Origin: Mytilisepta virgata
Lineage: Eukaryota; Mollusca; Bivalvia; Mytilida; Mytilidae
Reading direction: 5' to 3'
Length of the DNA: 64,000 nt
NCBI GenBank assembly: GCA_028015205.1
Contig: CM051514.1
Span: 2,418,001 to 2,482,000 of the forward strand
Numbering within the stretch: position 1 is the first letter of the stretch; every line of letters starts with the position of its first letter. Positions 1 to 40,319 of the stretch are shown here, in pieces. A program made the position numbers and the translations under genes. A model generated the notes under the pieces. It saw nothing but the letters and a program-made list of their open reading frames with translations. It made no database searches and had not been told where the DNA came from.

Positions 1-1500
1 TATATATGGAAACATTCTATGAAGTTTCAAGGATGTGGATGAAAAACTGTAGGAGGAGTTGATTTCACAAAATAGGTACCCTCTATTGAAGATGTCATTA
101 AAAACGACTAAGTTCCAAAGTTTGGAAAATTGGGAAATAATTCCTGAAATAATTCCATAAAGTGAGGTGCACATCTTCAATATATATAGAAACATTCTAT
201 GAAGTTTCAAGGATGTGGATGAAAAACTGTAGGAGGAGTTGATTTCACAAAATAGGTACCCTCTATTGAAGATGTCATTAAAAACGACTAAGTTCCAAAG
301 TTTGGAAAAATGGGAAATAATTCCTGAAATAATTCCATAAAGTGAGGTGCACATCTTCAATATATATAGAAACATTCTATGAAGTTTCAAGGATGTGGAT
401 GAAAAACTGTAGGAGGAGTTGATTTCACAAAATAGGTACCCTCTATTGAAGATGTCATTAAAAACGACTAAGTTCCAAAGTTTGGAAAAATGGGAAATAA
501 TTCCTGAAATAATTCCATAAAGTGAGGTGCACATCTTCAATATATATAGAAACATTCTATGAAGTTTCAAGGATGTGGATGAAAAACTGTAGGAGGAGTT
601 GATTTCACAAAATAGGTACCCTCTATTGAAGATGTCATAAAAAAACGACTAAGTTCCAAAGTTTGGAAAATTAGGAAATAATTCCTGAAATAATTCCCTA
701 AAGTGAGGTGCAAATCTTCAATATATATGGAAACATTCTATGAAGTTTCAAGGATGTGGATGAAAAACTGTAGGAGGAGTTGATTTCACAAAATAGGTAC
801 CCTCTATTGAAGATGTCATTAAAAACGACTAAGTTCCAAAGTTTGGAAAATTGGGAAATAATTCCTGAAATAATTCCATAAAGTGAGGTGCACATCTTCA
901 ATATATATAGAAACATTCTATGAAGTTTCAAGGATGTGGATGAAAAACTGTAGGAGGAGTTGATTTCACAAAATAGGTGCCCTCTATTGAAGATGTCATT
1001 AAAAACGACTAAGTTCCAAAGTTTGGAAAAATGGGAAATAATTCCTGAAATAATTCCATAAAGTGAGGTGCACATCTTCAATATATATAGAAACATTCTA
1101 TGAAGTTTCAAGGATGTGGATGAAAAACTGTAGGAGGAGTTGATTTCACAAAATAGGTGCCCTCTATTGAAGATGTCATTAAAAACGACTAAGTTCCAAA
1201 GTTTGGAAAATTAGGAAATAATTCCTGAAATAATTCCCTAAAGTGAGGTGCAAATCTTCAATATATATGGAAACATTCTATGAAGTTTCAAAGATGTGGA
1301 TGAAAAACTGTAGGAGGAGTTGATTTCACAAAATAGGTACCCTCTATTGAAGATGTAAACGACTAAGTTCCAAAGTTTGGAAAAATGGGAAATAATTCCA
1401 TAAAGTGAGGTGCACATCTTCAATATATATAGAAACATTCTATGAAGGTTCAAGGATGTGGGTGAAAAACTGTAGGAGGAGTTGATTTCACAAAATAGTA
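1..1500. repeat. 180-bp tandem array, about 8.5 units
   Basis: Units start near 1, 181, 361, 541, 722, 902, 1082 and 1262 and are over 95 percent alike by eye. One unit (1262-1420) is shortened, and the last is cut after CACAAAATAG. The array runs off the left edge. Open frames inside it are periodic artefacts. The same family recurs at 16569-17600. Confidence 0.97.
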
Positions 1501-1605
1501 CCCATTTTCCCCGCCCGCCCGCCGCTGCCGCCCGCCGCCCGCCCGCCCGACATTCACCATACTATAACCCGGATTTGCACTGTGGGCAACCCGGCCAAAA
1601 ATACT
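1501..1605. repeat. GC-rich (CCGC)n tail with hairpin closing the 180-bp array
   Basis: A CCCG/CCGC microsatellite (about 1509-1550) is followed by ACATTCACCATACTATAACC and then an inverted repeat in which CCCGGATTTGCAC faces GGGCAACCCGG. The same tail closes the second array at 17600-17705. The layout of array, microsatellite, ACCAT and hairpin resembles the 3' ends of bivalve pearl/Helentron-like non-autonomous elements. Confidence 0.8.
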
Positions 1606-3704: not shown

Positions 3705-3758
3705 CTTGGCATATTTACAAACTTCCTCTCTAGCTTTTTCCCTTGTCAAATCAGTAAA
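3705..3758 (-). CDS. LARS2: LARS2 exon L, end of CP1 (FTDLTREKAREEV)
   Basis: The exon has 54 nt, 18 codons, phase 0 to 0, with acceptor TTTATTTCAG and donor AAG|GTAAGG. It encodes FTDLTREKAREEVCKYAK, matching human FTGMTRQDAFLALTQKA. The next block, expected to read WLISRQRYWGTPIP, is not found in bases 1-3700 on this strand, so the gene continues off the left edge. Confidence 0.88.
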
Positions 3759-5328: not shown

Positions 5329-5432
5329 CTGACCAGAGTTTACAAGTTTCCCATCAGAATCAATTACTTCTTTGAAGTTGAAACCAAATTTCTCTGCTGT
5401 GTCACGATCACACTGGCAAATACTTGGAATCC
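5329..5432 (-). CDS. LARS2: LARS2 exon K, conserved editing-site Asp region
   Basis: The exon has 104 nt: two bases completing Gly, then 34 codons ending in phase 0. The acceptor is TTCAATCAG and the donor CAG|GTAAAA. It begins IPSICQCDRDTAEKFGFNFK, equivalent to VPGHDQRDYEFA in E. coli. The Asp of QCD aligns with the universally conserved Asp that holds the substrate amino group, while the preceding His-Asp pair is lost. It ends SDGKLVNSGQ. Confidence 0.92.
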
Positions 5433-5801: not shown

Positions 5802-5906
5802 CTAAATGTGAATCACATTTTTCATGAAAGTCTACCCTGTCTGATATAATTAGTGGTATTCTGTCTCCTGTTATAGGGTGTACACAGTGTAATGATATAG
5901 GTAGAC
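5802..5906 (-). CDS. LARS2: LARS2 exon J, CP1 beta-strand exon (HPITGDRIP)
   Basis: The exon has 105 nt: two bases completing Gly, 34 codons, then one base. The acceptor is TATTTTTCAG and the donor TTAG|GTAATT. It encodes LPISLHCVHPITGDRIPLII and then SDRV...CDSHL. This matches the family block HPLTGEEIPV (E. coli) / LTQQEVPVVI (human), followed by the strand that ends DSxxGIP. It has no initiating ATG of its own and was found by looking for the family motif. Confidence 0.9.
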
Positions 5907-7799: not shown

Positions 7800-7827
7800 C
7801 TTCCCCAGTTCTTTCTCTGTTCTGATC
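7800..7827 (-). CDS. LARS2: LARS2 exon I, 28-nt microexon
   Basis: The acceptor tract TTATTGTTTCAG is followed by 28 nt and donor AAG|GTAATT. It reads DQNRERTGE plus one base (G). Sequence alone is weak, but phase supports it twice: exon H ends in phase 0, and exon J begins with two bases needing a one-base donor. With it, the spacing between SPQHR and the HPITGDRIP strand comes within two residues of human LARS2, as I recall that protein. The microexon contributes a charged surface loop. About 40 bp upstream its acceptor tract is duplicated imperfectly (TATTGCTTCAG). Confidence 0.75.
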
Positions 7828-10269: not shown

Positions 10270-11516
10270 ATACTGCTACCTACCATCTTATATAGTGGGC
10301 CATTATATCTGTGTTGTGATAGTACAATATGGGATATACCATACAAAGCTCCAGGATGTTCTGTAAAGACTGACAATTACCTACCATCTTATATAGTGGG
10401 TCATTATATCTGTGTTGTGATAGTACAATATGGGATATACCATACAAAGCTCCAGGATGTTCTGTAAAGACTGACAATTACCTACCATCTTATATAGTGG
10501 GCCATTATATCTGTGTTGTGATAGTACAATATGGGATATACCATACAAAGCTCCAGGATGTTCTGTAAAGACTGACAATTACCTACCATCTTATATAGTG
10601 GGCCATTATATCTGTGTTGTGATAGTACAATATGGGATATACCATACAAAGCTCCAGGATGTTCTGTAAAGACTGACAATTACCTACCATCTTATATAGT
10701 GGGTCATTATATCTGTGTTGTGGTGATAGTACAATATGGGATATACCATACAAAGCTCCAGGATGTTCCTTAAAGACTGACAATTACCTACCATCTTATA
10801 TAGTGGGTCATTATATCTGTGTTGTGATAGTACAATATGGGATATACCATACAAAGCTCCAGGATGTTCTGTAAAGACTGACAATTACCTACCATCTTAT
10901 ATAGTGGGTCATTATATCTGTGTTGTGGTGATAGTACAATATGGGATATACCATACAAAGCTCCAGGATGTTCTGTAAAGACTGACAATTACCTACCATC
11001 TTATATAGTGGGTCATTATATCTGTGTTGTGGTGATAGTACAATATGGGATATACCATACAAAGCTCCAGGATGTTCTGTAAAGACTGACAATTACCTAC
11101 CATCTTATATAGTGGGCCATTATATCTGTGTTGTGGTGATAGTACAATATGGGATATACCATACAAAGCTCCAGGATGTTCTGTAAAGACTGACAATTAC
11201 CTACCATCTTATATAGTGGGTCATTATATCTGTGTTGTGGTGATAGTACAATATGGGATATACCATACAAAGCTCCAGGATGTTCCTTAAAGACTGACAA
11301 TTACCTACCATCTTATATAGTGGGTCATTATATCTTTGTTGTGGTGATAGTACAATATGGGATATACCATACAAAGCTCCAGGATGTTCTGTAAAGACTG
11401 ACAATTACCTACCATCTTATATAGTGGGTCATTATATCTGTGTTGTGGTGATAGTAAAATATGGGATATACCATACAAAGCTCCAGGATGTTCTGTAAAG
11501 ACTGACAATTACCTAC
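10270..11516 (-). repeat. Tandem array of 12 partial copies of LARS2 exon H with its splice donor
   Basis: Seen on the minus strand, each 101- or 104-bp unit holds exon sequence from GTCTTTACAGAACATCC to ATAAGATG, then the donor GTAGGT and a short spacer. Copy ends fall at 10280, 10381, 10482, 10583, 10684, 10788, 10889, 10993, 11097, 11201, 11305 and 11409, and the parent exon ends at 11517. The 101-bp form lacks one CCA codon and is concentrated at the far end. Every copy keeps the exon frame internally, but unit length is not divisible by three: reading through the first donor meets a stop (TGG TAG) formed at the second donor. The first 12 codons of exon H and its acceptor are not repeated. 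No unit can splice in phase after exon G. Confidence 0.95.
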
Positions 11517-11639
11517 CATCTTATATAGTGGGTCATTATATCTGTGTTGTGGTGATAGTACGATATGGGATATACCATACAAAGCTTCAGGATGTTCTGT
11601 AAAGACTGACAATGGATCTTCCATACTTTCCTCTTCATT
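11517..11639 (-). CDS. LARS2: LARS2 exon H, CP1 threonine-region exon; parent of a 12-copy tandem array
   Basis: The exon has 123 nt, 41 codons, phase 0 to 0. The acceptor is TTTTACATAG and the donor ATG|GTAGGT at 11516. It starts NEEESMEDPLSV and includes FTEHPEALYGISHIVLSPQH, which aligns with the human FTLK...TATPEAIYGTSHVAISPSH region. In editing-competent LeuRS this is the threonine-rich peptide that hydrolyses mischarged tRNA. Here, as in human LARS2, the threonines are mostly replaced. A second possible donor four bases on (TAG|GTAATT) would break the phase to exon I. The last roughly 100 bp of the exon plus intron start are repeated 12 times to the left; the copies have Gly where this exon has Glu (HPGAL against HPEAL). 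Confidence 0.93.
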
Positions 11640-13392: not shown

Positions 13393-13549
13393 TTTACAAT
13401 AACAATAAAGATGGAGTTGACCTATCTTCTTACTATGACTTGTTCATGTATCCATGTACATAGTACTGATTTACCTCTCTAGGGAATATCTTTCTTATAT
13501 TATCCACACATACAAAGCATACTATCAGCAATTTTTAATCTTATTACCA

Positions 13550-15655
13550 TTATATTATACCACTGTATAGTAAACTTATTATCAGTACATTGTATGCATA
13601 GTAAACTTATTACCAGTATATTGTACTATGGCATAGTAAACTCATTACTGGTATATTAATCGTGCTACTGCATAGTAATATTATTACCAATACATTGTAC
13701 TACTGCATAGTAAACCTATAACAGTATATTGTACTACTGCATAGTAAACTTATTATCAGTACATTGTATGCATAGTAAACTTATTACCAGTATATTGTAC
13801 TACTGCATAGTAAACGCATTACTGGTATATTTATCGTGCTACTGCATAGTAATATTACAGTGGAACCCCTGAAAATTGCCCCTCTTAAAACGGGATTCCT
13901 CTATAAACCAAACTTTTACTTTCGGTCTGGAATTTTTGCCTATATATTCAAGTAAAAAATCCTCTGAAAACCGGACCCTCTGAATTCCGAACACTGGCCA
14001 TACTTTCAGGTACAAAACATATATATTCTTGTCAAATTAACCTCCAGAAACCGGCTGAAACAATGTATTACCTGGAAAATCAGTGAACCTTTATACATTT
14101 CATCCGTAATCGATCGATCATTGACATCATTAAACTAAATAACCATTTTGAATAAAGGTGTGAAAGTCATAAATCAAACAATAATCAGGCATCAATAAAA
14201 ATGTCGGATTGAAATTAAAAACAATTAATTGTATTAAAATAATATGCGCGTGGTACATGTACATATGTAAGTACATGGCACAATTTTACAACATCGTTAT
14301 AATACATTGTAACGCACTTCCGGTTTCACTCTCCGGATCAGATACGTCTTTTCAGGAACCTCCTAAAACCGTACCCTCTGAAAACCGGCCGATTTCTCCT
14401 GTCCCATGGCTGTTCGGTTTACAGAGGTTCCACTGTATTACCAATATATTGTACCACTGCATAGTAAACTTATTACCAGTATATTATGCTACTACACAGT
14501 AAACTTATTACCAGTATATTGTACTACTGCATAGTAAATGTATAACCAGTATATTGTATGCATAATAAACGTATTACCAGTATATTGTACTACTACATAG
14601 TAAACTTATTACCAGTATATTGTATGCATAGTAAACTAATTACCAGTATATTGTGCTACTGCATAGTAAACTAATTACTAGTATATCATGCTACTGCATA
14701 GTAAACTTATTACCAGTATATTGTGCTACTGCATAGTAAACTTATTACCAGTATATTGTGCTACTGCATAGTAAACTAATTACCAGTATATTGTGCTACT
14801 GCATAGTAAACTAATTACTAGTATATCATGCTACTGCATAGTAAACTTATTACCAGTATATTGTGCTACTGCATAGTAAACTAATTACCAGTATATTGTG
14901 CTACTGCATAGTAAACTAATTACTAGTATATCATGCTACTGCATAGTAAACTTATTACCAGTATATTGTGCTACTGCATAGTAAACTAATTACCAGTATA
15001 TTGTGCTACTGCATAGTAAACTAATTACCAGTATATCATGCTACTGCATAGTAAACTTATTACCAGTATATTGTGCTACTGCATAGTAAACTAATTACCA
15101 GTATATTGTGCTACTGCATAGTAAACTAATTACCAGTATATTGTGCTACTGCATAGTAAACTAATTACCAGTATATTGTATGCATAGTAAACTAATTACC
15201 AGTATATTGTGCTACTGCATAGTAAACTAATTACCAGTATATCATGCTACTGCATAGTAAACTTATTACCAGTATATTGTGCTACTGCATAGTACACTAA
15301 TTACCAGTATATTGTGCTACTGCATAGTAAACTAATTACCAGTATATTGTGCTACTGCATAGTAAACTTATTACCAGTATATTGTGCTACTGCATAGTAA
15401 ACTAATTACCAGTATATTGTGCTATTGCATAGTAAACTAATTACCAGTATATTTTGCTACTGCATAGTAAACTTATTACCAGTATATTGTGCTACTGCAT
15501 AGTAAACTAATTACCAGTATATTGTGCTACTGCATAGTAAACTTATTACCAGTATATTGTACTACTGCATAGTAAACTTATTACCAGTATATCATGCTAC
15601 TGCATAGTAAACTTATTTACCAGTATATTGTGCTACTGCATAGTAAACTTAAGTA
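13550..15655. repeat. 35-bp minisatellite, roughly 45 units, interrupted by a MITE
   Basis: The unit is CTACTGCATAGTAAACTTAT plus TACCAGTATATTGTG. A shorter variant lacks CTAC (TTGTATGCATAG). Variants TATATCATG and TAAACTAATTA recur in a regular order at about 14700-15250, which suggests higher-order duplication. The array ends 18 bp from LARS2 exon G. Repeats abut without spacers, so it is not a CRISPR. Confidence 0.95.
13858..14435. mobile_element. 578-bp TA-flanked MITE (Tigger/pogo-like) inside the minisatellite
   Basis: Both ends read CAGTGGAACCYCTG, inverted, with TA duplicated on each side (13856-13857 and 14436-14437). Removing the element restores a normal minisatellite unit. Interior CCTCTGAAAACCGG motifs repeat in both orientations. 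No transposase frame is present. Confidence 0.9.
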
Positions 15656-15672: not shown

Positions 15673-15786
15673 CTTTAAAACAAAATCAAGTCTTGTTCCT
15701 GTACATTTTCCAATCCATTCTTTTTGTATATCTATAATATCTTTCCAGTTCTTTTTATTGACATTCTCTAAACCATCATACAGGGA
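15673..15786 (-). CDS. LARS2: LARS2 exon G, CP1 editing-domain entry (WIG motif)
   Basis: The exon has 114 nt, 38 codons, phase 0 to 0, with acceptor ATTTTTAG and donor AAG|GTAAAC. It begins SLYDGLENVNKKNWKDI and continues to EWIGKCTGTRLDFVLK, matching the family pattern of a W-rich helix, then (H/N)WIG and a beta strand. It lies between the 35-bp minisatellite, which ends about 15655, and the 161-bp array to the right. Confidence 0.94.
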
Positions 15787-16360: not shown

Positions 16361-17705
16361 AGACACAAATGGCCGGGTTGCTGGGTGTTTACTGTAGTGG
16401 TGACAAAGGTGATTACAAGATCATATTGCACATTGGCAGTCATGAATATTTATATAGACAAAATCAGACACATTGTATGTTGGTGTACGAGCACAGAGGC
16501 AGCCATCAATTTAATTAGAAATAGGTGAACTAAGCAATATTTGATTTGATTACATGTTGATAAACACATGTTTGGAAAAATGGGAAATAATTCCATAAAG
16601 TGAGGTGCACATCTTCAATATATATAGAAACATTCTATGAAGTTTCAAGGATGTGGGTGAAAAACTGTAGGAGGAGTTGATTTCACAAAATAGGTACCCT
16701 CTATTGAAGATGTCAATAAAAAACGACTAAGTTCCAAAGTTTGGGAAAATGGAAAATAATTCCTGAAATAATTCCATAAAGTGAGGTGCACATCTTCAAT
16801 ATATATAGAAACATTCTATGAAGTTTCAAGGATGTGGGTGAAAAACTGTAGGAGTTGATTTCACAAAATAAGTACCCTCAATTGAAGATGTCAATAAAAA
16901 ACGACTAAGTTCCAAAGTTTGGAAAAATGGGAAATAATTCCTGAAATAACTCCATAAAGTGAGGTGCACATCTTCAATATATATAGAAACATTCTACAAA
17001 GTTTCAAGGATGTGGGTGAAAAACTGTAGGAGGAGTTGATTTCACAAAATAGGTACCCTCTATTGAAGATGTCAATAAAAAAACGACTAAGTTCCAAAGT
17101 TTGGAAAAATGGGAAATAATTCCTGAAATAACTCCATAAAGTGAGGTGCACATCTTCAATATATATAGAAAAATTCTATGAAGTTTCAAGGATGTGGGTG
17201 AAAAACTGTAGGAGGAGTTGATTTCACAAAATAGGTACCCTCTATTGAAGATGTCAATAAAAAAACGACTAAGTTCCAAAGTTTGGAAAAATGGGAAATA
17301 ATTCCTGAAATAACTCCATAAAGTGAGGTGCACATCTTCAATATATATAGAAACATTCTATGAAGTTTCAAGGGTGTGGGTGAAAAACTGTAGAAGGAGT
17401 TGATTTCACAAAATAGGTACCCTCTATTGAAGATGTCAATAAAAAACGACTAAGTTCCAAAGTTTGGAAAAATGGGAAATAATTCCTGCAATAATTCCAT
17501 AAAGTGAGGTGCACATCTTCAATATATATAGAAACATTCTATGAAGTGTCAAGGATGTGGGTGAAAAACTGTAGGAGGAGTTGATTTCACAAAATAGGTA
17601 CCCATTTTCCCCGCCCGCCCGCCGCCACCCGCCCGCCGCCACCCGCCCGCCCGACATTTACCATATTATAACCCGGATTTGCACTCTGTGCAACCCGGCC
17701 AAAAA
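16360..17705 (+). mobile_element. 180-bp-array element inserted in the 161-bp array
   Basis: The left segment (16360-16568) is single-copy and starts with a small hairpin (GGCCAAAGACACAAATGGCC). Bases 16569-17600 are about six 180-bp units, closely matching 1-1500. Bases 17600-17705 repeat the CCGC tract, ACCATATTATAACCCGG and hairpin tail. Flanking 161-bp sequence continues on both sides, so this is one insertion of about 1.34 kb. Confidence 0.85.
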
Positions 17706-38553: not shown

Positions 38554-40319
38554 AGAGAATGTGACTGTAAGACACAGATGCCTCATCCGCCTGAACACAG
38601 AATTGCTATCTATTATTTACATGTATGACTGAGAATATTTTAAACATATGAAAATTTCATAATATATAAGTTTTATTACTTGAAAAATAATGAATTCACA
38701 GTTATAAATTTAGTGTCTGTCATAAGGACCTAAATGGTAAAATTAAATAGAATCCTTCAAGCATTTAATATTGGTCATGTCAACTTCTATGTTGATGATC
38801 TGTGTTGGACTAAAAAATATGACTGAAGTTGTAAAATATCATTCATTGAATATATCATCACAGGTTTTTGAGAAATGACTAAAATACAAACAATTAAAGT
38901 CACTCAACCATAAAATATCTGTCACAGTATACTTTAATGTATTGTACTATAGACTGTGAAATATCATTAATACATTACCATAAGTTCTTTAGCAATACAT
39001 CTAAATGCAAAAATGTAATCAAAGTCAATCAAGAATAAAGTATAGGTCTTGGCGACTTAAATGTTACTGTGTTGTCTTGTACTATATAAGATGTTTACAC
39101 CTGTGAACTATCAGCGATATATTATGACCTCTTTACAATTTCTACGATTTTACCTTGACATGGATTTGAGCTCTGTCATAAATAGATTCTTTCTTTTCAT
39201 TTATGTCCATAATACGTCATGTACGCTATTATTCTATGTAATCTTTGTAACCTGTGAAGTACCCTTTCAGAGTTGCCATTACAAGTTGAACGTACCACAA
39301 TGTCATTATTACTATACGCTTTTCTGTATTCATGGCATGATATACCCTTCTGGGACAGAAATTGTTGCAACTCTGGTACAGTTTTTGTCGCAAAATTTAC
39401 CGGGGCTGCTATATTGTTACTGTTTCTATGCCTAACAAAACGTCACGTGATACGTCATTCTTTACCTCCGTAGCAAAGAGCATCGATCTCGAAAAAGTCA
39501 TATTATTTAGGTCCATAACAAAAAAACCTTTTTGGTCTTGTTAGCTGAAGAGCTGGCAGGATACATTCAAATTTTGTTCAGGACTCGTACATCAGAAACC
39601 AGTAGTAGGAGAATGTCCTTACAATCTTTAAAATTTCTATTTGATAATCTTAAATTCTAAAATTCTCATAAAATCTGTTTTCTAAATCTTTATAGCTGAA
39701 CTCCAAGTGTCAATATCAATGAAATGCATTTTACAATTAACATTACCCAAACTTTTGTTAAACTGTATATATTCCTGGCTACCACTATGCTGTTTGGTCC
39801 AAATTCACAAACTGATCCAAGATTGGTCCTCAGATATTTTGTTACACACCAATTCACTGGCAGTCGAAACTTCATTATTCTAAGCAAAATAGACATTATA
39901 ATTATGTTTACAATAAAACAGACGTATATTCTACTAGTGGATTAGTACATACTTTTATACAATTAATAGTGACTACTGTTTTATTATTTCTGGTTAGTTT
40001 ATATGTCAATAAAAGAATTGGCTTAAACTGGAATTATAACCATGTTATCATAAATGTATATATATTTCTTCAAATTGACAAATTTTAATGTAAAAATTAA
40101 TTCATTTTCATTATCTTAATAAAGTATACAAAAACGAGTAAGTCTCCCAAACAAAGTAACTGATATCTTGAATGCCTTACATTGTATTCAATAAATTATT
40201 TGTTTTTCAGAGACTGAAATGGCCAGGGGAATTGTTCCTATTAAGTTTATGCATACTTAATGGAGAGGTTACTTGAAATCGTGATATGGGTATTTTTTGT
40301 GACCCAAGTTTTACAGTCA
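38554..40319. other. Mostly unrecognised; degraded array near 38780-39110
   Basis: Two or three decayed units related to the 31.8-kb array (TTGTACTATATAAGATG, CATTACCATAAG). The rest is AT-rich with no coding sign. The 124-codon open frame at 39061-39435 crosses the array remnant and has no domain I recognise. Confidence 0.5.

Follow-up and report, generated by a model that had tools for sequence, protein, structure and literature searches.

The gene for mitochondrial leucyl-tRNA synthetase (LARS2) of the bivalve Mytilisepta virgata contains a tandem array whose first unit is the end of one of the gene's own exons together with its 5′ splice site. This array most likely belongs to a recurrent and donor-biased class, proposed here, of short tandem arrays that begin in this way. 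A second array of the same kind lies in LARS2, tandem copies of two donor words are in excess genome-wide, and probable exon ends are found at the start of many other arrays. The arrays are probably minisatellites that were seeded at donors and whose copies are tolerated since exon definition keeps the original donor in use.

The exon H array and its host gene

Protein-to-DNA alignment places the first half of LARS2 on the minus strand of the window, the whole stretch of 64,000 nucleotides analyzed here. Among the best 120 of 7996 scored homologs, the top match was the LARS2 protein of Mytilus trossulus (P0001; 75% identity over 98% of the query). Residues 1 to 907 of P0001 align piecewise from window coordinate 39875 down to −40679, in the window and 50 kb of neighboring contig, with one short piece being weak (E 0.42). 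When spliced, 23 exons yield one uninterrupted frame of 826 codons, and each of the 22 introns separating them is of the GT..AG type. This model shares 72% identity with P0001 residues 1–828 over 831 aligned positions; it excludes the last coding exon, which was placed by tblastn only, and its last six residues are spurious. The HMGH and KMSKS motifs are both present in the model, and the gene is apparently intact. The features are as follows, all on the minus strand.

39747..39875: first coding exon of LARS2, from the ATG (alignment and splice model)
36250-36152, 33190-33062, 22363-22272, 21593-21533, 20235-20146, 18623-18480: further LARS2 exons (alignment and splice model)
15673..15786: exon G (alignment and splice model)
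14436..15651: 35-bp array of 35 copies, starting 22 bp behind the exon G donor (TRF and inspection)
11517..11639: exon H (123 nt), with which the editing domain begins; both ends are in phase 0 (homology and splice model)
10277..11613: tandem array of the exon H end and 5′ splice site, 13 units including the parent (TRF and unit alignment)
10277..11509: the 12 intronic copies (2–13) of this array, each with the donor GATG|GTAGGT (unit alignment)
7800..7827: probable micro-exon I (28 nt, DQNRERTGE|G), an in-frame link between H and J (splice-site scores and open frame)
5802..5906: exon J (alignment and splice model)
5329..5432: exon K (alignment and splice model)
3705..3758: exon L (alignment and splice model)
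down to −34161: ten more LARS2 exons beyond L, outside the window (splice model)
down to −40679: C-terminal piece of LARS2, outside the window (tblastn only)

Exon H is translated as NEEESMEDPLSVFTEHPEALYGISHIVLSPQHRYNDPLYKM. Searched by itself, the exon finds LeuRS chains in the PDB (best E 0.0029), together with a weak match to the bacterial LeuRS family model (E 0.0073). Its acceptor scores 8.8 bits and its donor ATG|GTAGGT 7.8 bits (all splice-site scores were computed from consensus frequency matrices), and the flanking introns measure 4,033 and 3,689 nt.

TRF reports a single array at 10277-11613 with a period of 104, 13.0 copies, 97% matches, and a score of 2485. With its head-to-tail units of 101 or 104 bp, the array has the form of a minisatellite, and the 13 near-identical 104-bp units exclude a chance origin. 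An exact 32-mer of the unit occurs nine times in the 1.03-Gb assembly, counting exact matches only, and every occurrence lies within the H array. The unit consists of 97 nt from the end of exon H and 7 nt of the intron (GTAGGTA), whereas the original prediction had put the copied piece at roughly 80 bp. It had also stated that the acceptor and the first 12 codons are not copied. Indeed, the true acceptor is missing from the copies, but the missing part of the exon is its first 26 nt, which corresponds to 8 codons and 2 nt.

Only 10 of the 104 unit columns vary. The donor GATG|GTAGGT is kept in 13 of 13 units, and all 12 downstream copies differ from copy 1 by a GAA>GGA change (Glu to Gly) and a synonymous C>T, the parent unit alone retaining the Glu. 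Copies 1–7 and 9 are 104 bp long, and copies 8 and 10–13 are 101 bp long, with CACCACAAC reduced to CACAAC. Thus, the predicted 13-fold amplification of the exon end and donor inside an apparently intact LARS2, the uniform donors, the common Glu-to-Gly change, and the 3-bp length difference among copies all reappear in the TRF result, the unit alignment, and the open 23-exon frame. Further variants are TTTACAG>TTTAAGG in copies 4 and 9, GAC>GGC in copies 5, 10, 11, and 13, and one private change each in copies 2 and 3. Copies 4-5 carry the same variant pair as copies 9-10, which fits the duplication of a five-unit block. The predicted expansion from one capture, with variants spreading later, is supported.

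The last unit passes directly into intron sequence (GTAGGTAGCAG), and the simplest history is therefore a tandem duplication followed by growth. In this simplest history, the breakpoints would lie 26 nt inside exon H and 7 nt inside the intron. At the unit joints, the present-day sequence exhibits no microhomology with either flank.

Splicing of exon H

Exon J requires one base from the preceding exon, and the donor GATG|GTAGGT ends a codon. In the intron, 10 AG..GT segments with a length of 3n+1 nt exceed the score cut-offs, and the best of these is the 28-nt segment at 7827-7800 (acceptor 12.4 bits, donor 9.1 bits; 21.5 in total versus 14.2 for the next independent candidate). The model with this micro-exon yields YKMDQNRERTGEGLPISLHCVHP, which fits the variable loop of four mollusc proteins; it is consistent with the phase-0 donor GATG|GTAGGT, and the frame stays open through the micro-exon. 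Just before the micro-exon (window 8002-7795, minus strand), two similar versions of one local sequence are found, perhaps a small duplication.

A second possible donor (GGTAG|GTAATT) is located 4 nt downstream of the first. It scores 7.6 bits, compared with 7.8 bits for the first, in 12 of the 13 copies and 3.3 bits in the last. The +4-nt donor of copy 1 joins exon H directly to J in frame. We rejected direct H-to-J splicing as the sole model, because it is in frame only via the +4-nt donor and because the 28-nt micro-exon explains the phase with the ancestral donor. Judged by splice sites and reading frame, splicing through the micro-exon and direct splicing via the +4-nt donor are both possible.

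Donor 1 gives an open frame, donor 2 a frame shift with a stop in exon J, and donors 3–13 a TAG at the second donor, with the stop 76 residues from the start of H (the exon G and J boundaries used in this test are off by 1–4 nt). Both unit lengths, 104 and 101, equal 2 modulo 3. In addition, an acceptor-like sequence (TCTTTACAG, 8.0 bits) is retained in 10 of the 12 intronic copies. The earlier claim that only the first donor gives a clean frame agrees with the premature stops from donors 2–13. The description of thirteen equivalent donors holds insofar as they are identical from −3 to +6, but it overlooks the second possible donor 4 nt downstream.

According to a minigene study (PMC9225289), the upstream one of identical donors is favored when the flanking introns exceed ∼250 nt, and the downstream one when they are short. 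By this rule, and given the long introns on both sides of exon H, donor 1 is expected to be the donor used. The suggestions that the array titrates U1, tunes output through unproductive splicing, or makes polymorphic transcripts are unsupported; the same minigene work predicts that the first donor wins (PMC9225289).

Donor arrays elsewhere in LARS2 and in the genome

A second exon-end array in LARS2 (Q) lies ∼35 kb from exon H and outside the window, behind the exon with KMSKSKYNGVDPQ that ends at −23675. It comprises ∼15.5 copies of a 35-bp unit (AAAATATAATGGTGTTGGCCCACAG|GTAAGGCTAT), formed by the last 25 nt of the exon and the donor GTAAGG. A scan of the 3 kb next to the boundaries of 24 LARS2 exons turned up boundary copies after 2 of the 24 3′ ends and ahead of none of the 24 5′ ends; several of the boundaries used are off by 1–4 nt, and the outermost two, the first 5′ and the last 3′ one, do not correspond to splice sites. 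Of 48 control searches, each directed to the opposite side of the exon, one matched.

The 35-bp array behind exon G was not counted as an exon-end array, as it is donor-adjacent but not exon-derived; most of its units carry CTG|GTAAT. Another 8.6 copies of its unit are found at 13536-13831, and the start of intron G (GTAAACAGTTTACT) is like the array unit (GTAATAAGTTTACT) at 12 of 14 positions. Several tandem arrays of ∼160–182 bp also recur in introns, for instance at window 1-1503 and 16584-17603, and two of them share one type of unit. Unlike the short arrays, these avoid exons within LARS2.

Genome-wide, we counted word triples, i.e. three copies spaced by 20–50 nt, in the 109 contigs of the assembly; such counts score copies rather than arrays, so long arrays weigh more. 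The donor word CAGGTAAG forms 623 triples, compared with 126 for the reversed word. Single occurrences number 28,223 versus 19,997 (ratio 1.41), and the triple excess per word is ∼3.5-fold after this word-frequency correction. If the surplus of 8,226 words represents real donors, there would be an estimated ∼0.060 triples per donor as compared with 0.0063 per background word, a ∼tenfold difference. A second donor word, AAGGTAAG, forms 861 triples versus 245 for its reversal (raw counts, without single-word correction). No excess was seen for the one acceptor word tried, TTTTCAGG, with 95 triples versus 226 reversed (again raw, without single-word correction). Sorted by eye, the 95 acceptor-word triples fall into 24 unit types and one dispersed 47-bp family. 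The unit of this family (TTTTCAGGGAATAAATTTATTC...) stands in tandem at 13 dispersed places, e.g. C13:102624712-102625048, and is perhaps part of a mobile element.

We inspected 19 arrays, namely all 15 among the CAGGTAAG matches listed and 4 of the 13 further ones among the AAGGTAAG matches listed, the latter chosen for many copies. The 15 CAGGTAAG arrays have different units and come from contigs C1–C3 and the first 14.6 Mb of C4. An exon end was assigned where an open frame, preceded by an acceptor, runs up to the first donor. At 11 of the 19 arrays a probable exon end forms the start, and six of these exons have protein homology.

L045: PRMT6 (protein homology)
L046: VWA domain (protein homology)
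L050, G000:C2:3121000-3128000: PBX/extradenticle homeodomain (protein homology)
L057: type I phosphodiesterase, which we take to be ENPP-like (protein homology)
L061: ARMC8 (protein homology)
L062: EGF exon, its acceptor outside the stretch taken (protein homology)
L049, L052, L056, L058, L063: open exon without homolog

PDB matches of L063 and L058 appear spurious and were not used. No convincing exon was found at the other eight arrays of the 19 (L047, L048, L051, L053, L054, L055, L059, and L060). For L054, which combines an open frame and an acceptor but lacks a homolog or other support, no exon end was counted. The unit measures 104 bp at H, 35 bp at Q, and 23–52 bp, or composites thereof, at most of the others. 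Regarded as unusual in the original prediction, the LARS2 H array is in this genome one among many similar arrays.

Two of these loci exhibit further peculiarities. The PBX exon at L050 encodes KCQITVSQ, where its PDB homolog has KCGITVSQ, and the changed codon is near the start of the repeat unit; a conserved homeodomain residue may thus have been replaced with array sequence through gene conversion. At L049 (G000:C1:32360500-32368000), the first several 33-bp units hold the frame open and would be translatable if unspliced.

Probable origin and tolerance of the donor copies

At exon H, a 104-bp tandem duplication would have spanned the 3′ end of the exon and the 5′ splice site and seeded a minisatellite, which then would have grown and homogenized to 13 units. 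The copies, lying in the intron, would be removed with it. As a 123-nt exon between introns of ∼4.0 and 3.7 kb, exon H would be recognized by exon definition, which would favor the donor nearest to the exon's own acceptor; donor 1 would also be transcribed first. The copies would then be nearly neutral. Duplication of an acceptor, in contrast, would place decoys upstream of the real acceptor, where they would be transcribed first, which may explain the absent acceptor excess.

Tolerance by exon definition and transcription order explains how copies survive behind a donor, but not why donors exceed other words. Tolerance alone predicts no donor excess, and because the ∼3.5-fold excess remains, a mutational or selective donor bias is left unexplained. 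We put forward tentatively that 5′ splice sites are preferred seeds for tandem amplification, perhaps via transcription-linked or U1/R-loop-linked breaks close behind exons. The survivors would form a natural donor-competition experiment, some of them perhaps acting as U1-binding enhancers of exon definition, with on the order of a hundred arrays for a single donor word, a figure extrapolated from 15 arrays in ∼138 Mb.

A serious alternative, which we consider less likely, is that short tandem repeats concentrate in the exon-flanking DNA of this genome; the donor would simply be carried along, and copies of coding interiors and acceptors would be selectively lost. Within LARS2, 6 of 12 short-period arrays lie ≤100 bp from an exon, on both exon sides, compared with 2.47 expected (p 0.018), and none of 24 long-period arrays does, compared with 6.25 expected. 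This test concerns one gene and assumes uniform placement over the gene span including exons, several of whose boundaries are off by 1–4 nt. With a looser copy cut-off, however, the short-period result weakens to 6 of 18 arrays (3.18 expected, p 0.076), and the single acceptor word tried gave no genome-wide excess of triples. Far less probable still is an assembly artefact, with a single true exon H multiplied during assembly: the copies carry distinct substitutions and come in two lengths, and similar arrays with different units are found at many places in an assembly of 1.03 Gb in 109 contigs.

Alternatively, selection might maintain the arrays as U1 snRNP platforms, which would reinforce the authentic donor or protect long introns against premature polyadenylation (telescripting). 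The donor excess that persists after word-frequency correction and is absent for one acceptor word would suit this proposal, as would the conservation of the donors, which exceeds that of the remaining unit in 10 of 11 arrays by 0.002 to 0.10, an advantage inflated by the nine arrays that were motif-selected. At H, which was found without the donor motif, donor identity is 1.000 versus 0.978 for the rest of the unit, and the 9-mer is intact in all 13 units; as so few columns vary there, this invariance means little. The Q array, likewise found without the motif, has a donor 9-mer identity of 0.933 versus 0.908 elsewhere, but its copies are decaying: only 7 of the 15 retain the complete 9-mer, which is also the value of the median window, and 13 of 15 retain the GT. 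Of the nine motif-selected arrays, eight have a donor more conserved than the remaining unit, the smallest margin being 0.002, and L049 shows the reverse (0.806 versus 0.870). We rejected donor conservation in these nine as proof of selection, since motif selection biases the result. Overall, the copies give no clear indication of being under selection, which is not to say that selection is absent, and we judge U1 platforms to be improbable. A regulatory switch, in which some transcripts use donors 2–13 and nonsense-mediated decay lowers LARS2 output, appears quite improbable as well. Every one of these donors leads to a premature stop, the donors are identical from −3 to +6, and the 8.0-bit pseudo-acceptor recurs in most copies. 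However, with long flanking introns cross-exon proximity favors donor 1 (PMC9225289), and similar arrays are found in unrelated genes.

Seeding at donors with tolerated copies, the reading we prefer, has partial counterparts in known systems. Similar to minisatellites and VNTRs, the arrays feature head-to-tail units, unequal copy lengths, and variants spread between neighbors; here, however, a gene feature, the exon end and 5′ splice site, sets the unit, and the pattern repeats in unrelated genes. Tandem exon duplications and mutually exclusive exons, too, stem from tandem duplication of exonic sequence within one gene, whereas the H copies lack the acceptor and the first 26 nt of the exon, and their units break the frame. 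We therefore rejected tandem exon duplication for the H array, as the acceptor is uncopied, 104 and 101 nt are not multiples of three, and donors 2–13 give stops. Recursive splice sites consist of a polypyrimidine tract and YAG directly joined to GTRAG. The H junction was rejected as such a site because GATG|GTAGGT has no AG before the donor; this applies to the H array only.

Intron gain in the potato RdRp gene reportedly involves a tandem duplication that crosses an intron–exon boundary (PMC4974935). Both in this case and in the AGGT model of Rogers, the duplicated piece holds splice-site sequence and can cross an exon boundary; in our arrays no new intron is evident, and the copies, up to dozens, stand behind the original donor in an existing intron. 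Several identical donors behind one acceptor are also the arrangement in studies of competing 5′ splice sites (Reed and Maniatis; the minigenes of PMC9225289), but LARS2 H is natural and has 13 sites. Among the titles and abstract openings listed by a literature search, we recognized no report of exon-end or donor-seeded arrays.

If confirmed in RNA, many loci with identical donors competing behind one acceptor would allow exon definition and cross-exon proximity to be examined beyond minigenes. Which splice-site duplications an animal tolerates could be read from the donor/acceptor asymmetry, and the PBX case suggests that array sequence may be copied back into a conserved coding exon. At such loci, annotation pipelines may also misplace exon ends.

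Elsewhere in the window, at ∼57–61 kb on the minus strand, broken open frames match the C2H2 zinc finger (PF00096, 2.3e-09) and, below threshold, an adenovirus-type endoprotease (PF00770, 0.021). These broken frames suggest a Maverick/Polinton-like relic.
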